Source of the DNA: Promethearchaeota archaeon
GTDB taxonomy: Archaea > Asgardarchaeota > Lokiarchaeia > Sigynarchaeales > SOKP01
DNA length: 24,348 bases
Assembly (NCBI GenBank): GCA_019058515.1
Contig: JAHPYY010000067.1
Span: 1 to 24,348 of the forward strand
Reading direction: 5' to 3'
Within the stretch, counting starts at the first letter, position 1; every line of letters starts with the position of its first letter. Shown here one piece after another: positions 3,001 to 23,187 of this stretch. A model generated the notes under the pieces. It saw nothing but the letters and a program-made list of their open reading frames with translations, ran no database searches and was not told where the DNA came from. The translations under genes were made by a program, and so were the position numbers.

Positions 3001-6000
3001 ACAGTTTATATGCTTTCTCATGTGCCTCTATAGCATCTCCATATTTTCTCAATCTCCAAAAAGCATCGGCCATCATAGAATAAGTTGGCTCTAATCTAAA
3101 GACAACACCAGATTCCTTTGTGTATTTTATACACAACTCGTAATGTCTTATTGCTTCCTCGTATTCCTCGAGATTGAAATATTCTGTGCCTAATTGATGA
3201 TAGATATCCCCCGCTAGATATATTTGGTTATGCTCTTTAGCATAATTCACGCATTCTTTTAACTTTTTAATCCCCTCCTGTGCATCACCCGAGGGATTAA
3301 AAATTCGCCAATTCAAGATTAAACCAATATACGCTCTTACATTATTCAACTCTTTTGCCCATTTTTCAGCAGTCCTGAGTTTCTCTTCTATGGATCCAAG
3401 CCAATTTTTGTTTTCAAGTTTTAAATAGTAGTCAATTTTACCATACCGCATAATAAAATGCGCAGTAAATCCTGACCACAAAAATACGTAGCTCTCTTGG
3501 TTTCCCGCTTCTATAAAGCATTCTGAAGCCGAAAAATAGATGTTTAGAATCTTTTTTAATGGAACTTTTTTTTTGTTAAATAAGTATTCACCCCAAAAAC
3601 TATAGATTAATCCTTTATGAAGAGGGGTTAAATCCGCATCCTTTACACCTTCTTGATAAACTTTTTCCGAGTTTTCGGGATTTTTAATAGCGCTTACATT
3701 AATCTTTTTAAGCAAAATAGAGCTATACAAATTTTTTCTTGCTTCTTTCTCTTCTTTCAGTAGCTTAAGCATAATATCGCTTAAGTCTATGATCCCATCA
3801 AAATCTTGTAAAATTAATAGAATCTCGGTCATTGAATTGTAGGTTTCAAAGATTTTCATTGGTTCTTCTTTAATAGCGTAGGACATCCAAGTATGCTTTA
3901 TCTTTAGTACTAGATCTTTATAATTCTGGGAAATATCGCTTGCTAGGTAAGGATCGTTAAGTGTTTTAGCTGATTTAGGAGACTCATACTGGATTTTAAG
4001 ATTTTGGAAGAAATTTGATGCGTAAAGAGGGAGAAGCCTAAATAATAATTGTATTTGTACAGAGAGTTCTTCAAATGATTTTACCTCCTTCCAATTGTCA
4101 ATTTTTTGAAGAATTGTTCTAAAATCACTGTAATTTAATAAATTCTTTAAAATCCCCAATGCATTCAAGAAATACCTTGGATTCAATTCTAAGAGCTTGT
4201 CTACTAACTTAGATAATTCTTTCACCATGTTTTTGTCTTTTAACCATTCAGATTCAACTACCCATCTCATAATTGCGTATCTTTTGAAAAAAATCTGATT
4301 ATGAAGTATTCTTATCCAATCTTTTGTTATAAGACTTTCAATAAGATTTGAGTACAGCTCTGTATCTAAATCAATAACAGGAGTTTCGTGAATGCTAATA
4401 TTTCCGCATACGCTCAAAATCCTAAGAAACTCTTTTTCATCCTTGTTTAATGATTGATTCCATAATGAGTATACTCTCTCTTTAAATCGGGTTATTGAAC
4501 TCAATCCATTGGAACTTAGACTCCCTAATTTATCTTTTTTTAGAAAATGCAACTCATCTTCTATAACTTCGATATACCCTTGAGAATAATCTAAAATAGA
4601 GTTGATAGTTAGAATATCTATTCCCTGTTCCAATAAAATCCTCACTGCTTCGTTTTTCAAATTGATATCTTTAAAATTTAAAGGATTTAATTGAATTCTT
4701 TTTAAAAGTTCTTCGTTTCTGTGAAAATAGTGATTAACTACAAAGTGTTCTACTAATTGACCACCTCCTGAAACAACAATTAGCTTTATTTGATTAACCC
4801 TTAATTCAATTTGCTGAAATTCCTCTAAAATTAAATCCCAGTTTTGGATTCTGTCGACATCGTCGATAATCAGAACTAACTTTTTATTCTCCTTTTGGAT
4901 CAGTTCCTTTATGAGTTCCCATGATATCTTTTTATTGGAAAGTAACCAATAAAATTCCCATTCCTCTCCATTCTCTATCGAAGATTCAATTAATAAACGA
5001 GTTTTTCCAACTCCATGGTCGCCTGTTAAAGACAAGATTTGAAAATGGCTAGAAAGAAATTCTTGGATTGACGATAATTCAATTTTTCTACTAATAAATG
5101 GTAAGGTATCTTGATATCGCATTAGAATAATTTCTGATTTTGCCCAGAACCTGTCTAGTTTTTTTGGTGGAAAAATAAATGTACTATTTTCTAAGCATTC
5201 CTTTCCATAATACTCCGTTCCAATAATCCAGTCTTTAATTAAATGTTTAATGTACTTTTCATTTAAAAATGAGACTTTACAGAGGTTTTGAAGAGAAATT
5301 TCTACATGCATAGGTGATTTAAAGACGAGAACTTCTATATAAGCTCTTAAGATGATTTCTTTAGGACAAATTGTGGAATGTAAAAATGTGGTATAGTCAG
5401 AATTTTCCATGGTTGGATACGCTTGATTAAAATACCCACGCCACCATTCGAGAAATATAATACTTTGAACTTGTTCTAAAACTTCTCGGGTTCTATCTGT
5501 TATGTCAAAAGTTCTTCTACTCACTTGTTTTATGTAATCCCAGCTTTCTAACAACTTCTTATTTACTCTTCGCCCTCCATCGAGTGTCCGGCCAATCTCG
5601 CCAATATGATGTTGGATAAGCTCTTTAGGAATAAAATAGTCAATGGTAAACAATTGGACTTTTTCATTTTCATCGTGATAATGAAATTCTGGTTTTATTA
5701 ATTCATTCCAATAGGCATTTTTAATTAATTTTGGATTTATAAAAACAGGTTCTATCAACCCCGTTTGAGTTTCTAATTTGTATCCTTTTAATAAGTAGAA
5801 TTTAGAAGGTCCATTGTATAATAGATAATTTTTTAATTCAGGAGAGAGTTTAGACATTACAATAAGATCCATAAAGGTATCGCTAATAAGACCTTCATGC
5901 TCCCCCGGTTTTGCATTTATCCATAATACTGATTTACTTCCCTTTTTATTAATTTCGTTTGAATCGGAGAGAGATTTTAAAAGATCTGAATTAATTATTT

Positions 6001-6178
6001 CAGTAAATTCTGTTTGTAAATTCTCCTTCTTTGGTTGAACTGAATACGTTAAGCTCGGAAAATCGTAATTAATTCCAAATATCTTTCGAAGAGATTGTAT
6101 AAATGGATTAAGTCCGGATACTTTCAAAAAATTACCATTAATTCCGTTAAGTCCATTGCTTTTATTCAGTGGTTCCAT
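1..6178 (-). CDS. Giant STAND-type P-loop NTPase with TPR-like repeats (3' end outside window)
   Basis: The frame is open from an ATG at 6178 to the window edge, at least 2,059 residues; the C-terminus is missing. Residues 1 to about 375 are an N-terminal region I do not recognise. A Walker A motif GDHGVGKT lies at residues 386-393 and a Walker B motif LVLIIDDVDR has its acidic pair at D439-D440. This is the layout of STAND/AAA-like ATPases, in which nucleotide-driven oligomerisation activates an effector. From about residue 600 on the protein is helical repeats, with clear TPR-like units around 985-1120 (for example LEEYEEAIRHYELCIKY), as expected of a sensor arm. Proteins of this build include regulators and anti-phage Avs-type sensors; no effector domain is recognisable here, so the role is inferred. 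A purine-rich GAAGGGAT lies just before the ATG. The next gene upstream on the same strand encodes a HEPN protein. Confidence 0.85.
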   Translation of the reverse strand, partial: MEPLNKSNGLNGINGNFLKVSGLNPFIQSLRKIFGINYDFPSLTYSVQPKKENLQTEFTEIINSDLLKSLSDSNEINKKGSKSVLWINAKPGEHEGLISDTFMDLIVMSKLSPELKNYLLYNGPSKFYLLKGYKLETQTGLIEPVFINPKLIKNAYWNELIKPEFHYHDENEKVQLFTIDYFIPKELIQHHIGEIGRTLDGGRRVNKKLLESWDYIKQVSRRTFDITDRTREVLEQVQSIIFLEWWRGYFNQAYPTMENSDYTTFLHSTICPKEIILRAYIEVLVFKSPMHVEISLQNLCKVSFLNEKYIKHLIKDWIIGTEYYGKECLENSTFIFPPKKLDRFWAKSEIILMRYQDTLPFISRKIELSSIQEFLSSHFQILSLTGDHGVGKTRLLIESSIENGEEWEFYWLLSNKKISWELIKELIQKENKKLVLIIDDVDRIQNWDLILEEFQQIELRVNQIKLIVVSGGGQLVEHFVVNHYFHRNEELLKRIQLNPLNFKDINLKNEAVRILLEQGIDILTINSILDYSQGYIEVIEDELHFLKKDKLGSLSSNGLSSITRFKERVYSLWNQSLNKDEKEFLRILSVCGNISIHETPVIDLDTELYSNLIESLITKDWIRILHNQIFFKRYAIMRWVVESEWLKDKNMVKELSKLVDKLLELNPRYFLNALGILKNLLNYSDFRTILQKIDNWKEVKSFEELSVQIQLLFRLLPLYASNFFQNLKIQYESPKSAKTLNDPYLASDISQNYKDLVLKIKHTWMSYAIKEEPMKIFETYNSMTEILLILQDFDGIIDLSDIMLKLLKEEKEARKNLYSSILLKKINVSAIKNPENSEKVYQEGVKDADLTPLHKGLIYSFWGEYLFNKKKVPLKKILNIYFSASECFIEAGNQESYVFLWSGFTAHFIMRYGKIDYYLKLENKNWLGSIEEKLRTAEKWAKELNNVRAYIGLILNWRIFNPSGDAQEGIKKLKECVNYAKEHNQIYLAGDIYHQLGTEYFNLEEYEEAIRHYELCIKYTKESGVVFRLEPTYSMMADAFWRLRKYGDAIEAHEKAYKLYKQIGNYPEAQYSLNSIFDINVARGDLDKALALSDELLILSKKSNNSAFYFESLLRLAETNYLKGNYNKSDIYLSDVSRSSDKLDKDVNIHVKILRILNSYKKGQKEVLVNDLSVYLEDLNNYNFKTNDFEIMWIFRLIEILYEEEYLETIQKISDQMEKIPFFKDRPFSIYEYFLQNLDNYLSNIKEIHQKWPDWAIYFLSLFKKPDQFFFGQSNLIETMRKLGQPESEVQIDKFIEEVKEKVSEAEELNEDAFIEYLLQIPTLYVLLVQNKIRNREHLYVIFLFFRKMFGKYNKLDEKIQNLDLLLQHEEFNFLNIFMVLADAAQSLYDLDLALEIYQFVEKNSIHERTNATELKFFKVFEILAERRGEKSLALEILQKIDSILEHYGNLNDKISNRIKILTIYLSESFNKQVEQDITKLQENREDISNENRLMIKSLKIFLLIKKKMIIQANKEALIFIHDKNFQDEQEALAWFIAEFVDRIFVQEDLLNEDIDEKLIKKYINLFETGELKDVPFMATYERAFISIYLKMNQNIEKQSNIYDSLDIALRALKILEDYDWDQVKAGYGQLLSNLSKVQIDLINKKKVQESLELSKRIFKISRENNVPEFELFAIEHLILECLMLDDYKMVINWCFKYLESSILNKNLKILDRNFVLNNPFNKELLDFMGISIKNVRAEELIELTSLRVLEILKGEIIRNTTRLGVNESANLRDQLFIYILQNLDRRLLRKGNKRILYSFWSYLINTFHMLIINLYGESDFHDNYLIVEHILQDLNGVEEWETEIIKLWKIFLNLIDGNGDTMFNNSVSNLLNIIPPELKEIAEYNMQILKNAFAINSDPRKLYLKLNVSEIQILLTEFREKGDINKVIENLIDIIKYYFLLKEYEKCETYIREGKNIATENGRDRDLMVLVYLEGLLQYNIGNFLKALKSFSIIIENRRKVNPIDYIEANLYIANVLIKQAKFSKNELTQFIQNLKLLYDDLENNLKKDLLYVVLNHA

Positions 6179-6496: not shown

Positions 6497-7513
6497 TTAA
6501 TGTACTGCGAGTGAAAATTCATTAATCCTATCTTTTAGGAAATTTATGGTTTTATTCACTGCGTCGTATGTAGATTCGACTTCTGTTTTTGTTATGCTTT
6601 CATCGTCAAGAAATGCGTGTATTATCTTATGCCTTTTCTCAATAACGCTTTGGAGCGTCTGTAATTCCTTGTCTATAGGTTGTGTATCAATTGAAAAGAA
6701 ATGCTTAAACACCCATCTTACACCACCTACTTCTTTAATCCTTTGAAAATTAAGCTTACCCCTCATATTTTTTAATGCCTGGTATAGAATCTGCTTGAGA
6801 ATCTCGTAAGCACCGATTTCTTCCATTTTATTTGCTATTAGGTACATTTGATATTGGTTTAAAACACCAAGCTTTTTGCATAGCTTAAACACGTAACTCT
6901 TCCGCTTAAGATTCTCCCATTGTTCAAAATCTGATCCCTCCCTGTAGGATAACTCCTTGTTTAAGTTCAATTTATCGTAAACATTTAACCCAAGTAGATC
7001 GAGAAGTGGGGTAAAATCGGACTCTTCAAGAGAGAAAAACCAGAGATAATTATAGTTAAGAAACAAGTCTTTGGTAGCGTTTTCGAAAGCAGAAGTGAGG
7101 AAGACCAATGCTACTGCGTAATGCCCATCCTTAATTAATTTTTCTACTCTCTCCATATTAAGCGTGTAAGCATTTTGGGATATTGCTTCTTCGAAGATTT
7201 TATACGCTATTTCACTGGCTAATTCTTTTTTGTTATAACGTTTATCATCCAGAAAAATTTTACTAACATAAAAATAGTATTTTCCCTTCTTCGGAGTTTG
7301 AGTCAAAACGCATTTAAGCTCGCTCTGTCCTTCATCTATTAGGGATACCCCAATTAAATCGTCCTTGAGGAAGTAAATATTGATAGTGGGTTGTATTTTA
7401 AAGAGATCTTGCAATGATTCGTATTTACGACTCAATTTTCTTAAAATTCTTAGGATTTCCTCGACTACCTCACTTATTCTAGCTTTTATTATTTCACGAT
7501 TGATGACATTCAT
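6497..7513 (-). CDS. HEPN-domain protein, probable RNase
   Basis: 338 residues. The C-terminal half carries the hallmark R-x4-H motif, RHKIIH at residues 294-299, which in HEPN families is the metal-independent RNase active site. The helical stretch HYAVALVFLTSAFENATKDL (131-150) is typical of the first conserved helix pair of HEPN domains. The first 110 or so residues form a separate domain that I do not recognise. The ATG has AGGA about 5 nt upstream, and a TATA-like tatatat lies near 7648-7657. HEPN RNases act as toxins or as effectors in abortive defence, often with a MNT-type antitoxin. None is visible here; the neighbours are a giant STAND ATPase downstream and a hypothetical protein upstream. 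The HEPN call is firm; the toxin or effector role is inferred. Confidence 0.8.
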   Translation of the reverse strand: MNVINREIIKARISEVVEEILRILRKLSRKYESLQDLFKIQPTINIYFLKDDLIGVSLIDEGQSELKCVLTQTPKKGKYYFYVSKIFLDDKRYNKKELASEIAYKIFEEAISQNAYTLNMERVEKLIKDGHYAVALVFLTSAFENATKDLFLNYNYLWFFSLEESDFTPLLDLLGLNVYDKLNLNKELSYREGSDFEQWENLKRKSYVFKLCKKLGVLNQYQMYLIANKMEEIGAYEILKQILYQALKNMRGKLNFQRIKEVGGVRWVFKHFFSIDTQPIDKELQTLQSVIEKRHKIIHAFLDDESITKTEVESTYDAVNKTINFLKDRINEFSLAVH

Positions 7514-11715: not shown

Positions 11716-12651
11716 ATGCCAAAAATTATTTCTACTACGGTCTTCCTTTTTCTGCTAACAAGCGCTTCTTATTGCGCTACAGGATTGAAAAATTCTATGG
11801 GGCCGTGGTACGAGTACGGACCGTTCGTCTGGGAACACATCGAACACTTCGAGATAGACGGGAACGAACAGTGGCGAACCTTTGCCGAAAATCCCATGTA
11901 CCCGTTTGTGATTCGCTCGGGAGGGATTTACGCAATTGGTTACACAGACTTTGGAAGCACAAATCTAACGATTAAAAACTCGAACGTACCATTCTACATA
12001 AGCTATAGTAGGTGTGGGAGTCTGATCTTGAACAATGTTTCCCACGCAATCATAACGAACTTTCCCTGCTTTTACATACAAATGCACCAAGCAAGCGAAG
12101 TATTCGTAAGTTTCGGAGAGCTACAGATGGTAGTTATTTCGAATTCGAAGGAATGTTCTGTCTCGCTTAGCAACGTAACTCATGGAGGAGGGATGGAGAT
12201 TACCGATTGTTCTAATGTAGATATAACCACCAATAGTATTTTGGAATCGGGGTTAGACGGGATTTGCGTCAGGAATTCCAACAACCTTTCCATAACGGGT
12301 AACCTTATCAAAAGTAGCTATCACAACGGGATATTCTTAGATTCTTGCGAGCGCGCTGAGATCAACAACAACACCGTTAACGATTGTCGCGAGTACGGAA
12401 TACTGTTTTCTTCGAGCTCTCACAACTTCGTTGCAAACAACAACCTGCTGTACAACCAAAAAGGCTCGTATTTTGAAGAAGTAGGATCCACTGAAAACCA
12501 ATTTGAAAACAACAAAGCCGAATACAAAGCTCCCAAGTGGGCGATCTACCTGTACCTGGCGATTGGAGCGCCTATTGTCGTCGCAATCATTGTAGTGGCT
12601 ATGAAGGTAGAAAAAGCGTACCTAAGGAAAAAACATTCTAATAGTTCTTAA
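11716..12651 (+). CDS. Secreted parallel beta-helix (NosD-like) protein with C-terminal membrane anchor
   Basis: 311 residues. The N-terminus is a typical signal peptide (KIISTTVFLFLLTSASYC, about 3-20). The middle is built of beta-helix rungs with Asn ladders; the clearest are at about 185-265, with repeated patterns such as NNLSITGNLI and ERAEINNNTV, as in NosD/CASH-type right-handed helices. Residues 276-297 form a transmembrane helix followed by a short basic tail (EKAYLRKKHSNSS), so the protein should be displayed outside the cell with its C-terminus inside. Several N-x-S/T sites could be glycosylated. Such proteins are abundant in Asgard archaea and methanogens; ligands are mostly unknown, with sugar or surface binding likely. 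The gene is notably G+C-rich: 33 of 60 bases in 11821-11880, against about a third in neighbouring genes. It is the only large plus-strand gene in the left half. Confidence 0.85.
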   Translation: MPKIISTTVFLFLLTSASYCATGLKNSMGPWYEYGPFVWEHIEHFEIDGNEQWRTFAENPMYPFVIRSGGIYAIGYTDFGSTNLTIKNSNVPFYISYSRCGSLILNNVSHAIITNFPCFYIQMHQASEVFVSFGELQMVVISNSKECSVSLSNVTHGGGMEITDCSNVDITTNSILESGLDGICVRNSNNLSITGNLIKSSYHNGIFLDSCERAEINNNTVNDCREYGILFSSSSHNFVANNNLLYNQKGSYFEEVGSTENQFENNKAEYKAPKWAIYLYLAIGAPIVVAIIVVAMKVEKAYLRKKHSNSS

Positions 12652-13592: not shown

Positions 13593-14504
13593 ATGCCAAG
13601 AAAAAGAAAAAGGCGACCTAAAATTACTCCGAACTCTACCCGAGTTCAATATGTAGATACATCACTTGGATACGAGTATCCTACTCCAATATACTACGAA
13701 TTAATTGAGAAAAATGGTAAATACATAGTACGCTATTACTCTAACGACAAATTTATGAGCGCCCGTGTACTAAAAAAGAAGATTGACGTAAAAAACTTTA
13801 AACCAGAAGACCACGGAGGTCAAAACCTTTTTACTGCTCGGTATCAGCGAGAAGAAAACTTAGTTAATATCATAAGTAGCCTTTTCAAGCGATTTAACTT
13901 CGAAGTCTCTCTTAATCCTAAGTTAGGGGTATATAAGCCAGACATTAAATTAAAGAAAGATAATAAAATAATATATGTAGAAGTCAAAGCCTATCATGCG
14001 AGTTATATTTGTGGAGACCCAGAGATTTGTCAGTGTTTAAGATACTACAACCAAGCAAAAGACATAGATCAGGCCAAAGTCCTACTAATCACCTCTGGAG
14101 AATTGATTGTCCCAAAAGATTCGTTTTTAAACAATCCAATTAAGAATCCTATAGAACTTGTAGGAGATTTTTACAAGAAGAGGGTTATTTCAAGAACCCA
14201 AGCAAAAACTTTAGATTTATTTTCAGCTAGAGACATCTATCGGCAAGCGAAAAAAAAGTTCGAGAAGAAGTTCGATAAAGACTTATTAAGTATAAACTGT
14301 GTCTTCCTTAAAAATCGGCATATTTCTAAATTCCCAAATTGTCTAATTGAGGACGCAAATTTCGATGTGTTGTTAATAAACGCAACAATTTTTAAAAAAG
14401 TATTACGGAACTTAAGAATGTATAAAGAACTGAGCAAATTTAAAACTCTAAGACAAGAACCAATGGAAAGACTAATTATGAATGCGAACCTTTTAAATTT
14501 TTAA
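13593..14504 (+). CDS. PD-(D/E)xK superfamily nuclease
   Basis: 303 residues. The nuclease core shows a helix with acidic residues E87/E88, then YKPDI with D117, then IIYVEVKAY with E130 and K132, the classic PD...ExK signature. It ends in Q147-x3-Y151 (QCLRY), the QxxxY motif shared by RecB, AddB and Cas4-type nucleases. Three Cys (C140, C146, C148) crowd the stretch between the catalytic Lys and QxxxY, and two more lie at 236 and 250. This could be a metal or Fe-S site, although the canonical Cas4 pattern is not met. The N-terminus (RKRKRRPK) is strongly basic and could bind DNA. The gene faces the primase-exonuclease genes with only a 30-bp gap, so it is in the module by position but on the opposite strand. 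It is probably controlled through the TGTACA sites upstream. Alternatives are a restriction enzyme or a resolvase-like enzyme. Confidence 0.8.
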   Translation: MPRKRKRRPKITPNSTRVQYVDTSLGYEYPTPIYYELIEKNGKYIVRYYSNDKFMSARVLKKKIDVKNFKPEDHGGQNLFTARYQREENLVNIISSLFKRFNFEVSLNPKLGVYKPDIKLKKDNKIIYVEVKAYHASYICGDPEICQCLRYYNQAKDIDQAKVLLITSGELIVPKDSFLNNPIKNPIELVGDFYKKRVISRTQAKTLDLFSARDIYRQAKKKFEKKFDKDLLSINCVFLKNRHISKFPNCLIEDANFDVLLINATIFKKVLRNLRMYKELSKFKTLRQEPMERLIMNANLLNF

Positions 14505-14534: not shown

Positions 14535-15212
14535 CTACAAATTTAAACTATATTGCTTTAACCACCGATCTCGAAAGATAAGAGCCTCATTAAGAAGACA
14601 ATTTTCATTATGTTTAATGATGGAATCAAATTCTCCGTTTTCATACAATCTCTCTACGATTTTGTTGTGACGAAACAAGGGGTCATGTGTTGATGCGTAA
14701 CCTAGTTTAAATATCGCCTCAGCCATCGTCTCCATATCGTACTCCTGAAGATTTACGATAAAATGAGATTGGATAAATTTGTAATTTTTCAAGACACTTT
14801 TTTCTGTATTATTTGCCATTAAATATTCGTAGGTGCGAGCGAGTTGAGAATCCTCGTAATTAGAAAAAGCAAAGCACTGTATCTGCTCGTCCCTTAGGAT
14901 TTTAAGGGTTTTAAATATTGCAAAATACAATTCAGCGCGTTTTTTATCTAAATCTTCCACATAGATGGTGATAATAGAATTTCCGAGGTACACTCCCATC
15001 AAAAATATATTTCCTTCGAGATCTATGATGCAAGCAGAGACATCCTTAGGCATCTCTTTAAAAGGAAAAACATCGCGAGCTCTAATCTCTTTAAGCCGAA
15101 CAAACACTTCAGGGTCATGTTTTTGATCCAAGATTTTACACACTACAGCGCTATAGTTAACAATTCTTGTTCTGATTTCGTGTGCGATATTAAATTTCGT
15201 TAACTCATTCAT
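14535..15212 (-). CDS. DEDD-type exonuclease-like protein (RNase H fold)
   Basis: 225 residues. IIDLEGNIFLMGVYLG (62-77) fits motif I of DEDD exonucleases of the YprB/RNase_H_2 type, with D64 and E66. FAFSNYEDSQLA (114-125) fits motif II with E120 or D121. KHNENCLLNEALIFRDRWLK (200-219) resembles the last motif, usually YNxxD...L..wL. The expected final Asp position is a Cys here (C205), so activity may be reduced or use another residue. The ATG overlaps the end of the primase gene by 8 nt (ATGAATGA), so translation is coupled and the product probably works with the primase, for example in trimming primers or nascent strands. The family call is moderate, based on motif order and spacing. Confidence 0.6.
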   Translation of the reverse strand: MNELTKFNIAHEIRTRIVNYSAVVCKILDQKHDPEVFVRLKEIRARDVFPFKEMPKDVSACIIDLEGNIFLMGVYLGNSIITIYVEDLDKKRAELYFAIFKTLKILRDEQIQCFAFSNYEDSQLARTYEYLMANNTEKSVLKNYKFIQSHFIVNLQEYDMETMAEAIFKLGYASTHDPLFRHNKIVERLYENGEFDSIIKHNENCLLNEALIFRDRWLKQYSLNL

Positions 15213-17481
15213 ATTTCAATTCAATTTTTTTCCTATTAATCAAGAAAAATTGTTCTATAAAATTTACAACGCAAAAATATAGCAAACAAACCAAGTGAAT
15301 CGCTCCTATAAGAGACTTACTTTCGATGTCCCCGCTCCGAGATTTTTTAGGGATAACGGCACAGTAATAAATCGATAATTCAGCAATCTGATGTAATTGT
15401 TGAGAATAGGTGATCAATACGTTTTTCTGCCTGTTCGAGATTCGTGTATCGTTATTTTTAAGGGTCATTAATCGACTAACGATCTCTAAATTAAATTGAA
15501 TAATGTTTCTAAATTGACCTACGAAATTAGAAAATTTGTGGATGTCTGTGAACAGTTCTCTGAAAGAAATTGATTTTTCAAAAATATCGCTTTTCATGTT
15601 AAAGAAAAAATCGAAATAGTAAAGAGATTCAAGTTTACTTTTTAGCAGGGCGTAAGAAATTGAATTGCTAAGCAGATAACACTTCAGAAGTCGTTTGATC
15701 TCCTTTAAGAGCAGGTTACGATCTAATAATTCTTTATCCCAAGCAGATTTCTGAGGATAGAATTTGCAAATATTCAATATGAATTGGATGGCCTGTTTAG
15801 GAGCTTTATCGAACTTTAGGGTCTCGTGGATTAGGTGCGAATAAAATACTTTTGAATCGTAAAAATATCGCCACCAATTGTAGGATCCAACGCTTCGATC
15901 ACAGACATCCATCACTCCAAATCGGAGTATCATTAAAAACTCCGGGTAGACACCTCCTGGAGAAAAACGCCGCTCCAAATTGGACTTTTTAATGGCATTT
16001 GGTGTTATCAAGAACTCGTTTATATTATTGGCTTCTAGACGGGATGCAACGGACTCAATAGAAGAGTACTGCTTTAAAGTGTTAAAATCTTTAGCATAGT
16101 CGTAAAATTTGCCGCGCTGAGGATCGTATATCGGGATAGAAACTAACCCGGTTTTGTTATGTATACTAAACACCCTAAAAACACCTGCGCCCATGGAAGA
16201 TGTATCTAGAAGGATTTGGACTAAATTACGCTTTTCCTTTTGCAGCGTAAAGAGGTTATTTTTATGTGAAGCACTTAAATCTTTCCGAATTGCTTCGGGA
16301 ATTCTAATTTTTACCTGATTATCAAAGACCATGTGGATGCAAATAGCTTGAGCAAGAGTTTTAAAGAATTTGAATTTATCTCGCATCACAGATTTCTGCG
16401 ATTTTCGCAAGTTGTTTATCCCTGGGACGAGATTTTGGTAATATAGTTCTGGAACATTAACTCTTCCTTCGAAGTCTTCTACGATGCCTGGTTCAATACG
16501 CAAAATTAAGTGGCATCCCCGGGAACCCGACATGTTAATGGAACATCGAGGGAGACCGAGTTTTTTAAGAGTCTGAAGAAAGGCTTCGCACACAGAAAGG
16601 GTTAAATTCCAGACATCTTGCTCGCTATATCTTGCCTTAATATAATCGGACATGTCGACATCAATGATAAAATACACGCAATGTTGTCTAGGATCCGCAG
16701 TCCTTACCGACACATAAATTCCAGAAACGAGATTTTGCAGTAATACTTTACTAAACGCTTCGGGTGTAGTTGTGCTATCAAAAAAATTGTGAAACGATAT
16801 TCTCTCGTTCTCATATATCACTTTTCTTCTCTTTTGTGCGGGCTTGTCTTCCAATACTGTTTCTATTGTTACCTCGCATTTTAGTCCAGCAAATGGAAAA
16901 AGATACGTAGCTAATATTTTTAGGTAATTAGGGTTAGAAATCAATCGACTGATTTTGTCAAATTGCTTAATAGTAAAGAATTTGTCTACCTCAGCAATGG
17001 GCTTTTTTTCTAATTTTGTGGAGAAAATGTCAACATAGGATTCATTTTCACGCGATTTTGAGGCGATATTCAGTTCGATGGCGCCCACAATCGCTAATTC
17101 TCCTACGCAAAACAATCTTAATATAGCTAAACAACTTTGGTAAGGTATTCGTTTTGAATTAAACAATAGGACCACATTATCACACCGTATGTAGAATTTA
17201 CCCCCTTGTGTAAAGGATTGAGTGTGATTTATCTTAATGTTTCCCCTATGCAAAAGATTTTCGACTGTGTACTCAATGTTGTTTACCAGTCTCCCAATAA
17301 CGCTCTGCACGTCTCGAAACATTTCGTTAAATATCGGTGTAATTTCGTGACTCCTAATTTTACCTAGATCAATATTTCTTCTTATTAGGTCGAGATCAGG
17401 GGATCTAAATGATATACTAACCTTGACTTCTCGCGACATGTTGTATTCATTTTTCAACTCTTCAATTTCGTTCCATGGCAA
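15205..17481 (-). CDS. AEP-family DNA primase (PriS-like)
   Basis: 758 residues counted from a TTG at 17481. The three AEP motifs are present. Motif I is FIIDVD with D274 and D276. Motif II is SGSRGCH at 318-324, ending in H324. The motif III region has D426 (ILLD) followed by FRVFSIHNKTGLVS (435-448), which matches the R-x-x-x-S-x-H-x-KTGL signature of archaeal/eukaryotic small primase subunits. About 250 residues before and 300 after the core are unfamiliar, making it roughly twice a cellular PriS; plasmid and viral AEPs often carry such extra domains. It should synthesise primers or extend them on DNA. The start is uncertain: the first ATG is at 17439, yet the frame is open and coding-like back to a TGA at 17545. 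It lies between an unknown acidic protein and the coupled exonuclease-like protein. This is an additional, mobile-type primase rather than the host replication enzyme, by its size and neighbours. Confidence 0.85.
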   Translation of the reverse strand: MPWNEIEELKNEYNMSREVKVSISFRSPDLDLIRRNIDLGKIRSHEITPIFNEMFRDVQSVIGRLVNNIEYTVENLLHRGNIKINHTQSFTQGGKFYIRCDNVVLLFNSKRIPYQSCLAILRLFCVGELAIVGAIELNIASKSRENESYVDIFSTKLEKKPIAEVDKFFTIKQFDKISRLISNPNYLKILATYLFPFAGLKCEVTIETVLEDKPAQKRRKVIYENERISFHNFFDSTTTPEAFSKVLLQNLVSGIYVSVRTADPRQHCVYFIIDVDMSDYIKARYSEQDVWNLTLSVCEAFLQTLKKLGLPRCSINMSGSRGCHLILRIEPGIVEDFEGRVNVPELYYQNLVPGINNLRKSQKSVMRDKFKFFKTLAQAICIHMVFDNQVKIRIPEAIRKDLSASHKNNLFTLQKEKRNLVQILLDTSSMGAGVFRVFSIHNKTGLVSIPIYDPQRGKFYDYAKDFNTLKQYSSIESVASRLEANNINEFLITPNAIKKSNLERRFSPGGVYPEFLMILRFGVMDVCDRSVGSYNWWRYFYDSKVFYSHLIHETLKFDKAPKQAIQFILNICKFYPQKSAWDKELLDRNLLLKEIKRLLKCYLLSNSISYALLKSKLESLYYFDFFFNMKSDIFEKSISFRELFTDIHKFSNFVGQFRNIIQFNLEIVSRLMTLKNNDTRISNRQKNVLITYSQQLHQIAELSIYYCAVIPKKSRSGDIESKSLIGAIHLVCLLYFCVVNFIEQFFLINRKKIELKYE

Positions 17482-17554
17482 TTGAAATGTTTTAGTTGCC
17501 AGTTCTTCCCGTAGGTATTTGATCTGCTGACTCGACAGTGCCCCTCACCGTCTT

Positions 17555-18253
17555 CTACACGCTGTTGCTCGTTAGCAAATATCGGGAAAAAAAATCGTGG
17601 ATTTCGGTTTGAGCTTCGGAATCTAACAACTCGCAAGATTTCTTTATGATTAGCCCAATATCGGCTAGAATTGAAGGTAAAATTCTGTTTAATGAAAAGA
17701 AAGACTCGTTTTGTGCTCGTAAATGCATTTTTTCATCGAAAAACTGCCTAAGTTCTTCCAGAGAAGGCTCAACTTCGAAAATATTGTTGATGAATGCAAC
17801 TGTAGGGTCCTTCAGGAAAGTCTCAATCGTACCATCCAAGCTTTCTATCTCGGAAGTTGTAGATGAAGATAAGCTTTCTGGTATTTCGTTACCGATTTGT
17901 AGGTTTGTTATTTCCGATAATGGCATCTCGTATTTAAGGTCAATCTTGGATTTTTTATCTTGGGAAACTAATGTTATGTTTTCCAAAAATATTGATACTT
18001 CCTCAGGATGGCGCATCTCGTCAAAATTTAACGAAAAACTTATGTTGGCTTTAAAAACCTCAACATTTTCTCGATTTATTCGAACGAATTCTGATAATAT
18101 ATCGCATTGGATATCTTTTTTGAATAATTCATACTTAACGAAGATCCATCGTAGTTTTTGATCGTTTAAAAGTCGGATTTCTTCCTTAGTCTCCGCCTTT
18201 AACTGCAGGTTCAGGTTCCGTTTAGCATCATACCAGATTTGTTCTAAATACAT
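17555..18253 (-). CDS. Hypothetical acidic protein, primase neighbour
   Basis: 232 residues, no recognised family. It is acidic, with predicted mixed structure in the first 120 residues, a Ser/Glu-rich linker (ESLSSSTTSEIES, about 126-138), and a helical C-terminal part with hydrophobic helices (about 185-210). It is the first gene before the primase, with a gap of about 70 bp that stays open in the primase frame, so a functional partnership such as an accessory subunit is plausible. The ATG at 18253 has no ribosome binding site, but ttataat lies about 35 bp upstream on the minus strand, suggesting its own promoter and a short leader. Confidence 0.65.
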   Translation of the reverse strand: MYLEQIWYDAKRNLNLQLKAETKEEIRLLNDQKLRWIFVKYELFKKDIQCDILSEFVRINRENVEVFKANISFSLNFDEMRHPEEVSIFLENITLVSQDKKSKIDLKYEMPLSEITNLQIGNEIPESLSSSTTSEIESLDGTIETFLKDPTVAFINNIFEVEPSLEELRQFFDEKMHLRAQNESFFSLNRILPSILADIGLIIKKSCELLDSEAQTEIHDFFSRYLLTSNSV

Positions 18254-18295
18254 AGTAAATTAAACCAGAATAGTTTTAAGGTTAATAATTATAAT

Positions 18296-18304
18296 AAAAA
18301 AAAA
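18296..18304 (-). terminator. T-run at the end of the HNH gene, possible operon break
   Basis: On the minus strand nine T follow directly after the stop codon of the first HNH gene and lie before the gene at 17555-18253. They may end or weaken the upstream transcript and split the nine-gene array into a DUF262-HNH part and a primase part. Confidence 0.35.
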
Positions 18305-19381
18305 TTAGTTGTAATTTGAAATAAATTCTATACTATAATCTACAATTGTGTCGATATTCTCCCAGTCAACTTTAGCCCAACTCTTTTTTTCAGAATTATA
18401 GTAAGTCCAAGATGGGCGAGTTCCGTTGTGGATCACTACCAGAGAAAAAAAATCCTTGTATTTGTCCCCTACAGCGCAAACGTGAAATTTTTCTTGTCCT
18501 TCCTTATCTAATATGAAATAACCATCGTAAGCAGGACGATAATAGTACATAGAAAATTCTTCGCTTTTTTTCAGAAAATTGTAAATATATTGATCCACAA
18601 GCTCTTGCACCACATTTTTGATGTTATTATGAACGATTTCAAACTCTGTAATTGGAATTGGATCTATAACCGATATTATATCCTTATGAGAAGGTTCTCT
18701 CGAATCTTCGTCCTCATTTTCACATTTGGAGTTCTCTAATTGGCTACGTAATTCGTTTAGGATTATATTTTGCACCTCACTCTCCAATATAGGGAAAAGG
18801 GAAACAATTAAATTGCCAAATTTTTTTACTCTATCAACTTTTTGTTGCAACATTTTATTTTCTGAATCTAGAAGTCCAATTTCTTTTTCCTTCTCATCTA
18901 ATTTTGAGTTTAAATCAGTAAGATTCTTTTTTAATTCCTTAATCTCAAATTTAGTTAAATATCCAATGCCAGCATCCCAAGATTTGTTTCTCTTCCTATT
19001 CTCACCAATCAATTTCAAGGTAAACCGCCCTACATCATCGTCCATGTTACTTTTATGACAATCTGTGCATAATGTAATTAAATTATTTAAATTGTTGATA
19101 TAATTCACAGTCCAAAATTTCATTAGTTCCAAGTATTCTTCGTGTTTCCCTCTCACAAGATATTTATCCATATTAACAAACTTTAGAAATATGTTATACC
19201 AATAGTCCCGAGAAATTTTATGGTGCGCTTCGAGAGCTTTTGAATCCAATTCCTCCCCATGACAATTAAAACATTTATACTTGTCCCTATCTAAGATAAT
19301 ATCTCTTATTTCTTTTGTATGATTGTCAACGATTTTGTTAAAATCTGTTATATACTGGGTCATGTTTTTTTTGAGTCCCAT
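18305..19381 (-). CDS. HNH endonuclease with coiled coil
   Basis: 358 residues. The N-terminal HNH domain is complete: RDKYKCFNCHG with C37 and C40, then EAHHKIS with H53 and H54 (H54 the presumed general base), then NNLITLCTDCHKSN with N99/N100, C105, C108 and H109. A stretch of about 40 residues, including GKHEEYLELMKFW, is inserted between HH and the second knuckle. Residues about 140-190 form a coiled coil (KKNLTDLNSKLDEKEKEIG), probably for dimers or for binding the partner. The last 120 residues form an unknown domain with aromatic repeats (FSMYYYRPAYDGYF). The start at 19381 aligns residue by residue with the paralogue and has a GAGGTG before it; an ATG at 19363 overlapping the previous stop as ATGA is an alternative. 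It should cut DNA; which DNA depends on partners such as the DUF262 protein. Confidence 0.85.
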   Translation of the reverse strand: MGLKKNMTQYITDFNKIVDNHTKEIRDIILDRDKYKCFNCHGEELDSKALEAHHKISRDYWYNIFLKFVNMDKYLVRGKHEEYLELMKFWTVNYINNLNNLITLCTDCHKSNMDDDVGRFTLKLIGENRKRNKSWDAGIGYLTKFEIKELKKNLTDLNSKLDEKEKEIGLLDSENKMLQQKVDRVKKFGNLIVSLFPILESEVQNIILNELRSQLENSKCENEDEDSREPSHKDIISVIDPIPITEFEIVHNNIKNVVQELVDQYIYNFLKKSEEFSMYYYRPAYDGYFILDKEGQEKFHVCAVGDKYKDFFSLVVIHNGTRPSWTYYNSEKKSWAKVDWENIDTIVDYSIEFISNYN

Positions 19382-19944
19382 TCTCTACACCTCTTCTTAT
19401 AAATCCCATTTAAGATCCCTATCCTTTCGCTTTCTTCTGGTATCATTTTAAGTTGAGCTTGTCCAGCACCTCCAGATCCTGGTGACAAATAGACATAAGG
19501 AGTTGAAGCACCTCCTTCTTCGTCGTTTCTTCTCTCTTCACATCTTATTTTGCTTGATTTTTTGGGTTTAGTGCTATGGATTAACGCGTATGTCAAATTT
19601 TTTTGAAAGCGCGAATCTCTATGACAATCCGTGCACACTGTAATAAGATTATTAGGGTTGTTAATGAAATTATCCCCCCAAAACTTCATTAATTCCAAAT
19701 ATTCCTCGTGTTTGCCGTTTAATAGATACTCACTCATATCAATGAAATTTAGAAAAAACCTCATCCAATCGTTCCGAGAGATAATACTGTGTATATCGAG
19801 AAAAGATGGATCATATTCCCTGCCACTAATACAACATCTGTATTTATCTCGTTTTAATATTTCTTTTCTAAGTTTCCTTGATAGATGGTTAAGTATTGAA
19901 TTAAAATCGTTCATATATTGTTCCAGAGCTCTCTTTAATGTCAT
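19360..19944 (-). CDS. Degenerate HNH paralogue, probably without nuclease activity
   Basis: 194 residues, clearly a duplicate of the following HNH protein: the first 110 residues align with almost no gaps, and GKHEEYLELMKFW is identical in both. Key residues have changed: the first knuckle reads CCISG instead of CFNC, and HH has become HS (H52, S53), so the presumed general base is lost. The second knuckle CTDCH (C104, C107, H108) is kept. The coiled coil and C-terminal domain are replaced by a short Gly/Ser-rich tail (SPGSGGAGQAQ). It may be a non-catalytic partner or inhibitor of the active copy. The ATG follows the previous stop directly (TAAATG), with an AAGGAG ribosome binding site. It ends inside the next gene (22-bp overlap), so the two are probably made together. 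Confidence 0.8.
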   Translation of the reverse strand: MTLKRALEQYMNDFNSILNHLSRKLRKEILKRDKYRCCISGREYDPSFLDIHSIISRNDWMRFFLNFIDMSEYLLNGKHEEYLELMKFWGDNFINNPNNLITVCTDCHRDSRFQKNLTYALIHSTKPKKSSKIRCEERRNDEEGGASTPYVYLSPGSGGAGQAQLKMIPEESERIGILNGIYKKRCREWDSKKT

Positions 19945-20154
19945 TTACCACATCTCCTTTAAAATCTCCGTTCTTGGCTTTTTCGGGTCTGGGATGCAAG
20001 GATCCTGAGAAATACTTTGATGTACGAAAAGCTTTTCGCAGTCGTTGCATAAAGGTATGAAGAAATCGGGATAATCGCTGAATTCAGGAATTTTGTCTGG
20101 ATCAATCTCGATATTAATACTAGTAAGAGCGCTTTTTATCGGTATTTTTGACAT
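19945..20154 (-). CDS. Small protein with a CxxC knuckle
   Basis: 69 residues from the ATG at 20154. A longer frame from a TTG at 20202 adds 16 residues of low-complexity sequence. The ATG is preferred because a good TATA box lies about 31 bp upstream, as in leaderless archaeal genes. The single recognisable element is IPLCNDCEKLFVHQ, a CxxC knuckle like the second half of an HNH or zinc ribbon. It ends directly before the degenerate HNH gene and carries that gene's ribosome binding site in its last codons. It could be a truncated third HNH copy or a small zinc-binding partner. Confidence 0.55.
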   Translation of the reverse strand: MSKIPIKSALTSINIEIDPDKIPEFSDYPDFFIPLCNDCEKLFVHQSISQDPCIPDPKKPRTEILKEMW

Positions 20155-20180
20155 ATATTTTATAATATTATATAATTGAT

Positions 20181-20190
20181 TATTTATAAT
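20181..20190 (-). promoter_or_regulatory. Probable TATA box for the HNH gene group
   Basis: Reads ATTATAAATA on the minus strand, centred about 31 bp before the ATG at 20154. Position fits an archaeal leaderless promoter driving the small CxxC gene and the two HNH genes. Confidence 0.45.
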
Positions 20191-20255
20191 TTTTTCACGC
20201 AATTTTATACACCAATTTTTTATTTTTTTTTATCACATAAATAAATTGGTATTTT

Positions 20256-20513
20256 CTAAGAATAAAATTTCCTTTTTAAACCTATCCGCGCTAAATTGCG
20301 ACAAATTTGGTATTTAGAAGTAGCTAGAAATATCACATTATTTATAAATAAACGTCGATATTTTTTGGAAACGAATCGTAATTTACAAGGATTATAATAG
20401 GCACTTACGCTTTCTAAATAAGATCTGATAAATTTGTCGCTTTTCACAATTCGATGTTTATCACATTTATCAGGACGAGCTCGAATGAAAACGATCACTT
20501 GGCCTTTATACAT
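20256..20513 (-). CDS. Small basic hypothetical protein
   Basis: 85 residues from an ATG at 20513, strongly basic (many Lys and Arg, for example RFVSKKYRRLF and RIGLKRKFYS), with four Cys not in an obvious zinc pattern. No family is recognised. It could bind nucleic acid. It lies between the winged-helix gene and the CxxC gene in the same direction, with gaps of about 110 and 100 bp, looser than elsewhere in the array. The real start and even its coding status are less sure than for its neighbours. Confidence 0.45.
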   Translation of the reverse strand: MYKGQVIVFIRARPDKCDKHRIVKSDKFIRSYLESVSAYYNPCKLRFVSKKYRRLFINNVIFLATSKYQICRNLARIGLKRKFYS

Positions 20514-20626
20514 TTTTATCTCAATTGATTTGAACTGAACAAAAAATGAATTACTAAACGAGATTTCTTATTTCTTCAATAAGAAGTAATTAAACTCAAT
20601 AAATAAATTCAAAATATAATCTAAAA

Positions 20627-21004
20627 TCAAGATAATACATCGAATAAATCAGACAAATTACCTAACTCGTTATCTCTAAGGGCAGGTCTCATCATATGAG
20701 TCGTTAATTGAAAACCAAGTTGAGTAAGATTAACTTCCGTTCGCTTACCCCCTTTCCAAGTAATTAAACCCTCTTTTCTGAGTGTTGTCATTAATTTACG
20801 TTTATAGCTCTCAGAATTGCCAAATTTGGGATTATTAAGGATCTCATCTCTTGTAATACTCTTGTCCTCGTTATTATAGCACTTCCTCAAGACCATTAGC
20901 AAATAAATGGCTCTTTTGAACATGTATTTCTGGGATAACTGCCTAATTCTCTGCTCGCGCTCGGATTCTGCATTATTTATATTATCTTTATTCTTTTCTG
21001 GCAT
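20627..21004 (-). CDS. Winged-helix DNA-binding protein
   Basis: 125 residues. After a charged N-terminal tail (1-20), residues about 25-100 have the profile of a winged helix. A long first helix (FKRAIYLLMVLRKCY) is followed by TRDEILNNP, then a recognition-helix-like SESYKRKLMTTLRKEGLI (64-81), and a two-stranded wing (WKGGKRTEVNLTQLG). This resembles MarR/PadR-like or defence-island regulators, but the exact family is not clear. It follows the DUF262 gene after 23 bp and is surely cotranscribed with it. It could be an autoregulator of the array or a DNA-targeting subunit. Confidence 0.65.
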   Translation of the reverse strand: MPEKNKDNINNAESEREQRIRQLSQKYMFKRAIYLLMVLRKCYNNEDKSITRDEILNNPKFGNSESYKRKLMTTLRKEGLITWKGGKRTEVNLTQLGFQLTTHMMRPALRDNELGNLSDLFDVLS

Positions 21005-21027
21005 ACTAATCTAATCCATTGTGTTTA

Positions 21028-23187
21028 TTATTTGAGGTTAATTTCACGAAAAAATGTATTTTTAATTGCTGATGCCATTTTTCTAGCGCGTTTCTCAAAG
21101 AAATATCTCATGTACTCTACACCCTCTACTCTCGTGTTCACTTTGCTGAACTTCTTCATTTCTTCTTCATAACCTGTCGGAAAATCCCACGCCTTAAATG
21201 TTTTATCCAAATTCGAGGAATTTATCCCTCCATTCGCTAGAATTTCCTCTAGCCAACTCCAAGGCCGATACTGCGTCAGCCGTCGCCTTGAGCGACCCAT
21301 ATAATTTATTAAAATTTTGTTCAAAACAGACGCTGGAGATATAGTATCCTTACTAAACCAACTTTTATGAAACACTTTAATCCATGCAATAGATCCCAAC
21401 TGCTTATTAAACAAGAAATTCCCCACACGAATTCTTTTACTGTTAAAAATTAGGGTATCAAATAGCGTTAGGTGATAAAGGAGTGCAAGATCAGAATAAT
21501 TAACTTTGCAAACAAGAAATTTCTGGGGAAGAATTTCCTCCCAAAATTGAGAGTCTAGTTCTTGATAGATTCTCTGCCTTAGATGTCTGAAATCTTTCGA
21601 GCCGTCGAGTAGTGTACGCAAATCACGATGCATATCAAGTTCCCGTTTATTGAACCTATCTGTAATAATGTTATAAACAAAATATTTTGCTAGAAACTCA
21701 TGAAACTCCTTTTCCTTCTGCTGGTTTTTACAAAATAGATAAACGCAATAGCACGCGTAAAGCGCAGTTTTTGTTTTAAATTTAGTGATTATATCCCTGT
21801 ATTTAGTTTTAATGTCTTTACGAGGAAGGAGATTCATAATCGCATCCTCAAGCGAACTGATAAATTTCAGGAAGCTTGAATTATTAATTATTTCACTTAA
21901 TAGGCTATTATAACTATTAAAATCAAATTTTGTCCATTTTATTTCGGAAAGCGAATAACTTTCTGGATCAGCGAGGTGTAACGCGATAAGAATTACATCG
22001 TAAAAATTTAGCTCGAATTTCTTACTTAGCGTCTCTCTCGTAAATTTGCTAAACTTCTTTATATTGTTGCGACTTGAAGGATTCCGAATTGATACCAAAG
22101 AGAAGAAGAAGTCTAATGGAGAAATATAGGTTGCCCGGTTTCGCTTTTTCATAAGGTTGTGCGCGAATTCTAAATCATCGCCTGTATATATTTCAGTTTG
22201 GATCTCAACACCCATCATTCCAAATATCGATCCAACTCTATTTGTAATTTGCAATATAATACTCGTATCCTTTATTTTATCGATTATGTTGCTGATCTTT
22301 TTTAAAAAATTATCTGACAGCTTTTTAGGAATATGTCGTGGGCCATAGACCTCCTTTAAATTCATCCATGTTCCATCTAATTCAGAAATCTCATCACTAA
22401 AGGCGAAGGTATCCAAAAGAAAATTGTAGTATAAGTCAAGGTTTTGTAAGTGATCGTGAATTTTCACTTTTCTATCGGAAAATACTAAGGCTAACGCTGT
22501 TTGCCTTTGAATTCCATCGCATGTTAACAAGATATCTTCGGTGGGAACCTTCTTAGACTCAACAATCTTACGAAACGGTGGTTTTGTATATTCTTTAGCC
22601 GAAGGGACTTTCCAAAACGACATAGAGCCTATGGTTGTTCCTTCATACAAGGATATTATAAGCTCCCGTACATCTTCTCTATTCCAAACAATTGACCTCT
22701 GGATAGGAGGGACTAATACTAAATTTTTCTCAATATTTCTTAGAAGGGTATGAATTTTTATACTCGCATAATCAAAACTACTCCCGTAGCATTCGATATT
22801 CTCCTCAAAAATTTCCTCATAATTCGGTTCTTTTTCTGCGTATTTAATTCCCCAGGTTGATGAGTTTAAAAGCATATTAATTAGTTTGCGAGCAGGATCC
22901 TTCCCCGGTGCGATATTTTTCCTTTTAAGATTAGTTTTGTGTTTTTCCGTTGTAACATGCCTCTGGTCGAGATATTTGATTTTACACTCGCAAACCGGGC
23001 AGAAGTTCCAACCTGCTGGGACTCCATACTCTTTTAACTTGGATTGGTGTGTTTCCGATGTTATGTGAATGTACGCGGGTTCTTGAATCTTTAGTTCACA
23101 AATAGGACATTGTTTATTTCCCGATTCCTCATTTTTGTTTATATATTTATTATTTGACAAATTTGTTCGCCTTTTATCAGTAATCAA
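21028..23187 (-). CDS. Twin-zinc-finger DUF262 (GmrSD-like) protein
   Basis: 719 residues from a TTG at 23187; no ATG occurs before the zinc fingers. Two C2H2 fingers lie in tandem with the same spacing, C-x2-C-x10-H-x5-H: C27/C30/H41/H47 and C63/C66/H77/H83. The DUF262 core follows: VPPIQRSIVW (159-168) and, after a strand-helix region, TCDGIQRQTALALVF (222-236), matching the IPxxQRxYxW and DGQQR motifs of the GmrSD N-terminal domain, a ParB/Srx-like fold that binds or hydrolyses nucleotide. The rest (about 240-719) is helical and aromatic-rich; the HNH (DUF1524) domain usually fused in GmrSD is not seen. In GmrSD the partners attack modified DNA. Here the HNH activity may be supplied by the separate proteins of the same array. 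This is the first gene of the array, with divergent membrane-protein genes upstream. Confidence 0.8.
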   Translation of the reverse strand: MITDKRRTNLSNNKYINKNEESGNKQCPICELKIQEPAYIHITSETHQSKLKEYGVPAGWNFCPVCECKIKYLDQRHVTTEKHKTNLKRKNIAPGKDPARKLINMLLNSSTWGIKYAEKEPNYEEIFEENIECYGSSFDYASIKIHTLLRNIEKNLVLVPPIQRSIVWNREDVRELIISLYEGTTIGSMSFWKVPSAKEYTKPPFRKIVESKKVPTEDILLTCDGIQRQTALALVFSDRKVKIHDHLQNLDLYYNFLLDTFAFSDEISELDGTWMNLKEVYGPRHIPKKLSDNFLKKISNIIDKIKDTSIILQITNRVGSIFGMMGVEIQTEIYTGDDLEFAHNLMKKRNRATYISPLDFFFSLVSIRNPSSRNNIKKFSKFTRETLSKKFELNFYDVILIALHLADPESYSLSEIKWTKFDFNSYNSLLSEIINNSSFLKFISSLEDAIMNLLPRKDIKTKYRDIITKFKTKTALYACYCVYLFCKNQQKEKEFHEFLAKYFVYNIITDRFNKRELDMHRDLRTLLDGSKDFRHLRQRIYQELDSQFWEEILPQKFLVCKVNYSDLALLYHLTLFDTLIFNSKRIRVGNFLFNKQLGSIAWIKVFHKSWFSKDTISPASVLNKILINYMGRSRRRLTQYRPWSWLEEILANGGINSSNLDKTFKAWDFPTGYEEEMKKFSKVNTRVEGVEYMRYFFEKRARKMASAIKNTFFREINLK

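Follow-up and report, generated by a model that had tools for sequence, protein, structure and literature searches.

A conserved primase-polymerase trio in Lokiarchaea-like Asgard archaea, probably accessory and horizontally moved, abuts a separate restriction-type gene set

Comparison with described systems

Accessory archaeo-eukaryotic primases (AEPs) are known from mobile elements, and some of them have a nuclease-family partner (PMC4158269). In the arCOG07809 example, the AEP is fused to helicase, helix-turn-helix (HTH) and zinc-finger domains (PMC4158269). A primase-polymerase domain also occurs in an antiviral setting, in DRT7 (PMC13213688). The aloposons of Heimdallarchaea have few genes, one of them ParA-like, and lie upstream of giant genes (PMC8813620). 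Here, three adjacent genes around an AEP are described in a 24,348-nucleotide stretch of DNA (the window) from a Promethearchaeota archaeon (assembly GCA_019058515.1, contig JAHPYY010000067.1, positions 1 to 24,348 of the forward strand), together with their relatives in other Asgard genomes. The three genes are referred to as the trio:

17555..18253, minus strand: gene 1, a 232-amino-acid (aa) beta-domain protein whose N-terminal domain is akin to a Lokiarchaeal host protein
15205..17481, minus strand: gene 2, an AEP primase-polymerase, 758 aa from TTG
14535..15212, minus strand: gene 3, 225 aa, possibly degenerate RNase H (RNase_H_2/DEDD)-like, with an 8-base overlap with the primase gene

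The primase resembles the archaeal PriS/PriL primase (PF01896/PF04104) in its DxD, SxH and hD motifs and in a weak match to an Asgard PriS profile. It differs in its length, about 740-790 aa in full-length relatives, in having partners without a PriL match, and in that the host PriS and PriL are encoded elsewhere. Like the PrimPols of archaeal plasmids and integrated elements (pRN1, pTN2, arCOG07809), it would be an accessory AEP. However, none of the helicase, HTH and zinc-finger domains of the arCOG07809 PrimPol were recognised in the trio, and searches of plasmid and viral collections gave no relative. Unlike DRT7, the trio has no recognised reverse transcriptase domain. Giant frames on three trio contigs recall the giant genes of the aloposons, whereas no tRNA was found in the loci searched and no giant gene lies beside the trio of the window. 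The word 'primase' is absent from the main text of the aloposon paper (PMC8813620). No description of the trio was found in the literature searched, of which titles and abstract beginnings were listed (including PMC12770985), and the terms 'primase' and 'GmrSD' gave no hit in a term look-up of PMC11291487 and PMC12988326.

Recurrence of the trio in Asgard genomes

A scan with the DUF262 alignment had led to a Lokiarchaeota metagenome-assembled genome (locus L001, genome G001), and the 227 genomes of its phylum were taken as the comparison set. Of these, 17 matched the primase profile, eight of them with a full-length gene (G094, G106, G110, G112, G115, G119, G124 and G150). Gene 1 lies adjacent upstream of the primase at six of the eight full-length loci. 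Weaker candidates for gene 1 were found with a seven-row profile in G119 (2.2e-4, with one gene between) and in G106 (7e-4), where the candidate lies on the opposite strand beyond gene 3, in a rearranged order. Gene 3 is directly downstream of the primase at seven of the eight loci (G112, G115, G124, G110, G094, G106 and G119); the contig of G150 stops 198 bases past the primase, before any gene 3. A ninth, truncated primase on a second contig of G124 (G124:C28) also has gene 3 downstream. Most junctions within the trio abut or overlap in these loci. The three genes at 17555-18253, 15205-17481 and 14535-15212 are thus a conserved module. The E-values of the genome scan at loci that are rows of alignments A3 and A4 arise by construction; independent evidence for the linkage comes from BLAST of the loci, gene 1 profiles built from other loci, and comparisons of gene 1 and host profiles.

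A broken primase copy was detected in G116 and a fragment in G129. The G119 primase (L038 8744-11089) has one in-frame TGA.

The array consists of two modules

The trio forms the downstream end of a head-to-tail array on the minus strand. The upstream part contains the following features, all on the minus strand:

21028..23187: DUF262/GmrSD_N protein (PF03235 E 3.8e-12, over cutoff)
20627..21004: probable winged-helix protein, 125 aa, with sub-cutoff winged-HTH (wHTH) matches
20256..20513: 85-aa open reading frame (ORF), probably not a gene (codon score 0.02)
19945..20202: 85-aa ORF, probably coding (codon score 0.13)
19360..19944: HNH protein 1, a degenerate tandem copy (PHROG HNH E 9.1e-7)
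18305..19381: HNH protein 2, with a longer C-terminal part (PHROG HNH E 2.4e-7)
18296..18304: T9 tract, directly 3' of the stop of HNH gene 2

The array is two abutting modules, the primase trio and a separate DUF262-wHTH-HNH restriction-type set. The initial annotation had proposed that all nine genes form one system. The common strand and the short gaps would agree with this proposal, but the genes do not stay together across genomes. BLAST of the window ORFs against the Asgard loci read placed relatives of the trio and of the DUF262 protein in different loci, and found no HNH relative. No DUF262 or HNH genes were found at the other eight Asgard primase loci in the stretches read, so that the trio recurs without them at all of these loci. 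The two strong DUF262 relatives adjoin other genes instead, a recombinase-like gene and a gene of 389-411 aa, and in G106, which has both, the trio and the DUF262 relative lie on separate contigs. A protein database of 5.8 billion proteins was also searched, with scoring limited to the 7,998 candidates sharing most words; under this limit, the primase had 15 relatives besides itself and the DUF262 protein two. The listed longest-contig sizes of the 15 primase relatives and the two DUF262 relatives disagree. A single nine-gene system fails because the trio and the DUF262 relatives occur apart, which is the pattern that the annotation itself had named as counting against it, and such a system is considered very improbable.

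Features of the three proteins

The initial annotation had reported all three AEP motifs in gene 2, and the alignments agree. The motifs hhhDhD, sxH and hD are present in order; every row that covers them keeps them (24/24 for motifs I and II, 25/25 for motif III). The primase matches PF01896 (DNA_primase_S) with an E-value of 1.4e-5 and 26.0 bits, 0.8 under the curated cutoff of 26.8 bits. Profile comparison (hhalign) with Asgard PriS gave an E-value of 0.0013 at a probability of 19%, and the best of five shuffles gave 0.051. Translation from the ATG at 17439, the start used in the protein database, yields 744 aa. A frameshifted N terminus was considered and rejected, since the other frames of 17391-17640 are unlike the N termini of the relatives (by eye). 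Alignment A1 of the primase used 15 of 16 database proteins (P0007 was left out). Pattern scans derived from A1 were unproductive in the genomes and viral contigs, and the patterns would miss several of the Asgard relatives found later; sequence searches of the PDB were uninformative. A distant AEP relative of 557 aa (G178, L049 5584-7257) lies near PolB, topoisomerase IA and DEAD helicase genes.

Gene 1 was compared with a family of host proteins. A four-row gene 1 profile built from other loci finds 17555-18253 at 3.1e-10, and also finds the upstream genes of G094 and G150. When built from the host paralogue alone, a profile detects the window gene at 1.6e-6, compared with 0.12 for the best of 200 shuffles. 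Comparison of six trio copies (the window copy was left out and the weak G119 candidate was included) with five host copies gave a probability of 97% and an E-value of 1.3e-10. By sequence, then, the gene 1 protein is judged to be a paralogue of a widespread single-copy Lokiarchaeal host protein. The host paralogue has about 320-460 aa, with one match each in 45 of the 227 genomes. In all, 47 genomes match the gene 1/host profile; G094 and G106 do so by the trio copy only, and at the eight trio loci the match arises by construction. The neighbours of the host gene in four of the five host loci read are genes for a nucleotidyltransferase and for a GTPase of the GPN-loop type (PF03029 in L155); the G157 host locus differs from these four. 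The host protein at L155 5915-6886 (syntenic in L153, L154 and L157) has ~320 aa and no Pfam match.

The gene 3 protein had been described as DEDD-like, and this holds in part. A DxE is present, but the position of the motif III Asp is Cys in 10/10 rows. At the other catalytic positions (by eye), D is found in 10/10 rows and E in 9/10, and E replaces D at the assumed motif II. There is also a conserved FxxxxE-type position, and HNxxC is found where the Asgard RNase_H_2 proteins have HNxxD. Comparison with RNase_H_2 (hhalign) gave a weak match with an E-value of 0.011, better than 30/30 shuffles, and the untrimmed comparison gave 0.038. A homologue search with gene 3 returned only itself. These alignments suggest that gene 3 possibly has an RNase-H-like fold, and exonuclease activity seems unlikely.

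Accessory status of the trio

PriS over cutoff was found on another contig in 8/8 trio genomes, and PriL was also found in 8/8, on contigs other than that of the trio. No PriL partner was found beside the trio primase, and the trio partners gave no PriL match. The PriS proteins of G110 and G119 share 76% identity and form a 100/100 clade, the sole starred inner branch of the PriS tree; their trio primases share 27% identity and fall into separate 100/100 clades. Across 28 genome pairs, the identities of PriS and of the trio primase showed a rank correlation of rho 0.07 (p 0.72). For the correlation, the pieces of the G119 gene were joined; a tree built from the first piece alone keeps the clades. 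The presence of the full-length primase is patchy (8/227 genomes), and in G106 the trio has a DDE transposase gene at a distance of about 2.5 kb. Given that each of these genomes encodes a PriS and a PriL of its own away from the trio, and that the trio-primase tree conflicts with that of the host PriS, the trio is probably accessory and horizontally moved.

Possible functions of the trio

We tentatively prefer to regard the trio as an accessory, horizontally exchanged priming or DNA-synthesis complex in chromosomal islands of Lokiarchaea-like Asgard archaea, at somewhat less than even confidence. The AEP subunit, with its intact motifs, might make primers or short DNA on single-stranded DNA. 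The gene 1 protein might be an adaptor or single-strand-binding partner that replaces PriL. The gene 3 protein, in which the last catalytic Asp is missing, might grip the primer-template end instead of cutting it. Most likely, such a complex would free the island from the host primase in its own copying or repair.

Several observations weigh against this interpretation. The tree conflict could also come from differential loss of old paralogues. The initial annotation had suggested looking for att sites or circular forms, and none were found. No tyrosine integrase was detected on the trio contigs of the eight genomes in a search for PF00589; no tRNA was detected in 24 loci, in a search with no positive control; and no exact terminal overlap was seen in six whole contigs, where fragmentation may hide a circular form. 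The plasmid, phage and viral collections contained no trio relative at the sensitivity used, and housekeeping genes were noted (by eye) on the trio contigs. With no integrase, tRNA or circle, and with housekeeping genes on the contigs, the trio loci are therefore chromosomal islands at most. In G111, a lone gene 3 (L064 5853-6533) lies among housekeeping-type genes, with no primase in the stretch read. The trio contains no helicase. The AlphaFold2 (AF2) model of the primase is poor (predicted local distance difference test score, pLDDT, 51.7), and the single-sequence model of gene 3 has a pLDDT of 36.6. The match of gene 3 to RNase_H_2 has an HH probability of 3.8% and fails in global mode, and the full-length gene 3 alignment leaves the DxE motifs out of register with RNase_H_2. 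Finally, some trio loci have defence surroundings. In G119, an HsdM gene (PF02384 5.1e-106) and an HsdS-like gene (by eye) lie on one side of the trio, and CARF, CARF-PIN-like and MkoA-like helicase genes lie on the other. The neighbours of the trio are of both island and defence types, so that the proposed mechanism is kept at the tentative level given above. The initial annotation had offered a mobile replicon or a defence system as alternatives; either is possible for the trio alone.

The G119 surroundings also fit the idea that the trio alone is an antiviral system, in which the AEP would make DNA in an immune response, as is reported for the reverse transcriptase-primase fusion DRT7, a precedent (PMC13213688). 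There is a sub-cutoff HSDR_N match in G150 and a CARF gene in G106, and the window itself has the DUF262 and HNH genes, STAND and HEPN matches below the cutoff, and a PD-(D/E)xK-like ORF. In G112, the PADLOC models NYN (3.7e-13) and HEC-09 (2.4e-7) are matched by the NYN gene, and the trio is patchy and apparently mobile. However, none of the three proteins is a recognisable effector, none of them matched a PADLOC family at E 0.1, and no restriction or CARF gene was seen among the scanned part of the neighbours in G112, G110, G115 and G124. An antiviral role for the trio alone, the chief rival to the preferred interpretation, is possible but doubtful. In a more novel variant, a three-subunit primase-polymerase born in Lokiarchaea would consist of the AEP, a conserved Lokiarchaeal protein recruited as a copy, and an inactive RNase-H-like subunit, and might be a hitherto undescribed type of DNA-synthesis machine that acts against viruses or protects elements. 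This variant is considered unlikely. Alternatively, the trio might serve genome maintenance as a polymerase set, specific to its lineage, for DNA repair or gap filling. In a Foldseek search with the poor primase model, the top three PDB chains were Prim-PolC (E 0.05-0.09; none at <=0.001), so that the likeness is suggestive only and not significant. Prim-PolC is a repair-type enzyme. A repair role would agree with the housekeeping genes on the trio contigs and with the PolB, topoisomerase and DEAD helicase genes in the stretch around the distant AEP of G178. The patchy presence and the tree conflict argue against it, as does the failure of all three trio proteins to match Ku or a ligase, and it is considered quite unlikely.

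One survey assigned PriS by the Pfam PF01896 cutoffs. In this way, a second, mobile primase set might be overlooked or might disturb PriS trees; the trio primase of the window scores slightly below the cutoff. The trio might also provide a testable handle on how Asgard islands copy themselves or fend off viruses.

Neighbouring genes of the trio loci

An NYN gene lies within about 5 kb of the trio in G112, G110, G115 and G124 (PF01936 in G112; the others by BLAST). Three of these loci also have a ParB-like gene, identified by PF02195 in G124 and by BLAST in the other two; L043_13 is ParB-like by BLAST and has no Pfam match. Small ribbon-helix-helix (RHH)-like genes were seen at three trio loci (by eye). 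The NYN, ParB-like and RHH-like genes count as island-type neighbours. Giant frames are found about 4-9 kb downstream of the trio in G124, G110 and G112. They are an uninterrupted frame of 12,745 codons (G124:C7 19221-57455; L042/L076/L077), an uninterrupted frame of 6,008 codons (G110:C23 13175-31198; L043/L068), and a frame of 3,661 codons that is open at the contig end (G112:C50 44106-55088; L040/L067). PKD domains were found in the scanned part of the G110 frame. Near the G106 primase, a LAGLIDADG/intein-like gene (L037 11900-13951; PF14528 over cutoff) lies on the other strand.

The restriction-type gene set

The GmrSD-type DUF262 motifs reported for 21028..23187 were confirmed by the PF03235 match. 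Zinc-finger-like CxxC...H motifs are present at the N terminus (by eye), and the protein has a DGxQR motif, which we take to be the GmrSD-type N-domain motif. It resembles the type IV GmrSD system in this domain and in the nearby HNH genes. It differs in that the window proteins gave no match to GmrSD_C (DUF1524) in library scans at E-values up to 1, and in that the HNH domains are separate genes that were not seen beside the DUF262 relatives elsewhere. The relatives are P0018 and P0019 in the protein database and L001 and L047 in the Asgard loci. The DUF262 profile matched 12 of the 227 genomes, two of them strongly. In both strong loci, L001/L048 (G001) and L047 (G106), DUF262 is followed by a tyrosine-recombinase-like gene of 562-585 aa (PF00589 E 9.1e-5, sub-cutoff, tested in L047) and then by the 389-411-aa gene; no trio or HNH relatives were seen in the stretches read. 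This common order in two Asgard genomes (L001 4828-9535 and L047 5555-10343) possibly represents a separate defence cassette.

The winged helix of the second gene has sub-cutoff matches only. The two HNH domains fall under the Pfam cutoffs, yet they match PHROGs HNH families and so were upheld. The HNH proteins are a tandem duplicate with 54% identity over 110 aa. HNH protein 2 keeps the CxxC, HH, N and CxxCH positions in the alignment; in the shorter HNH protein 1, the first zinc pair has lost one Cys, and HH its second His. HNH protein 2 had no match in the 227 Asgard genomes, viral contigs and plasmids, which are weak blanks from searches with no positive control. The HNH pair was ruled out as a recurrent partner, since no relative was found in these searches.

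Layout of the array and other features of the window

All nine minus-strand ORFs of the array lie where they had been annotated, but 20256-20513 codes no better than chance ORFs. The codon test was trained on other genes and compared with 11 chance ORFs, which ranged from -0.07 to 0.05. The other eight ORFs scored 0.07 to 0.18. Because the score of 20256-20513 falls inside the chance range, the array is more safely counted as eight genes rather than nine. The primase scored only 0.07, a narrow separation from the chance maximum, but it has relatives. Library scans gave no match for 19945..20202. In order from 21028, the spacings are 23, 113, 53, 0, -22, 51, 73 and -8 bases; the reported touching or overlapping ends were found at 19945/19944, 19381/19360 and 15212/15205, but 21028/21004 is a 23-base gap. 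The T9 tract is the sole T run of at least seven in the array junctions, and might mark a transcript end between the two modules, a possible but weak indication.

The PD-(D/E)xK ORF at 13593-14504 converges on the array as reported, with 30 bases between, but its D...ExK motif was seen by eye only, and scans of domain and profile libraries gave no match. No Rfam match was obtained, and no CRISPR-like array was seen among the repeat families listed. A protein of 2059 aa (2-6178), with TPR repeats and STAND/AAA matches below the cutoff, runs off the window end; the protein after it (6497-7513) has a sub-cutoff match to HEPN, and these surroundings are defence-like. A right-handed beta-helix (NosD-like) protein is encoded at 11716-12651, where the G+C content is about 0.40, above that of the surroundings.

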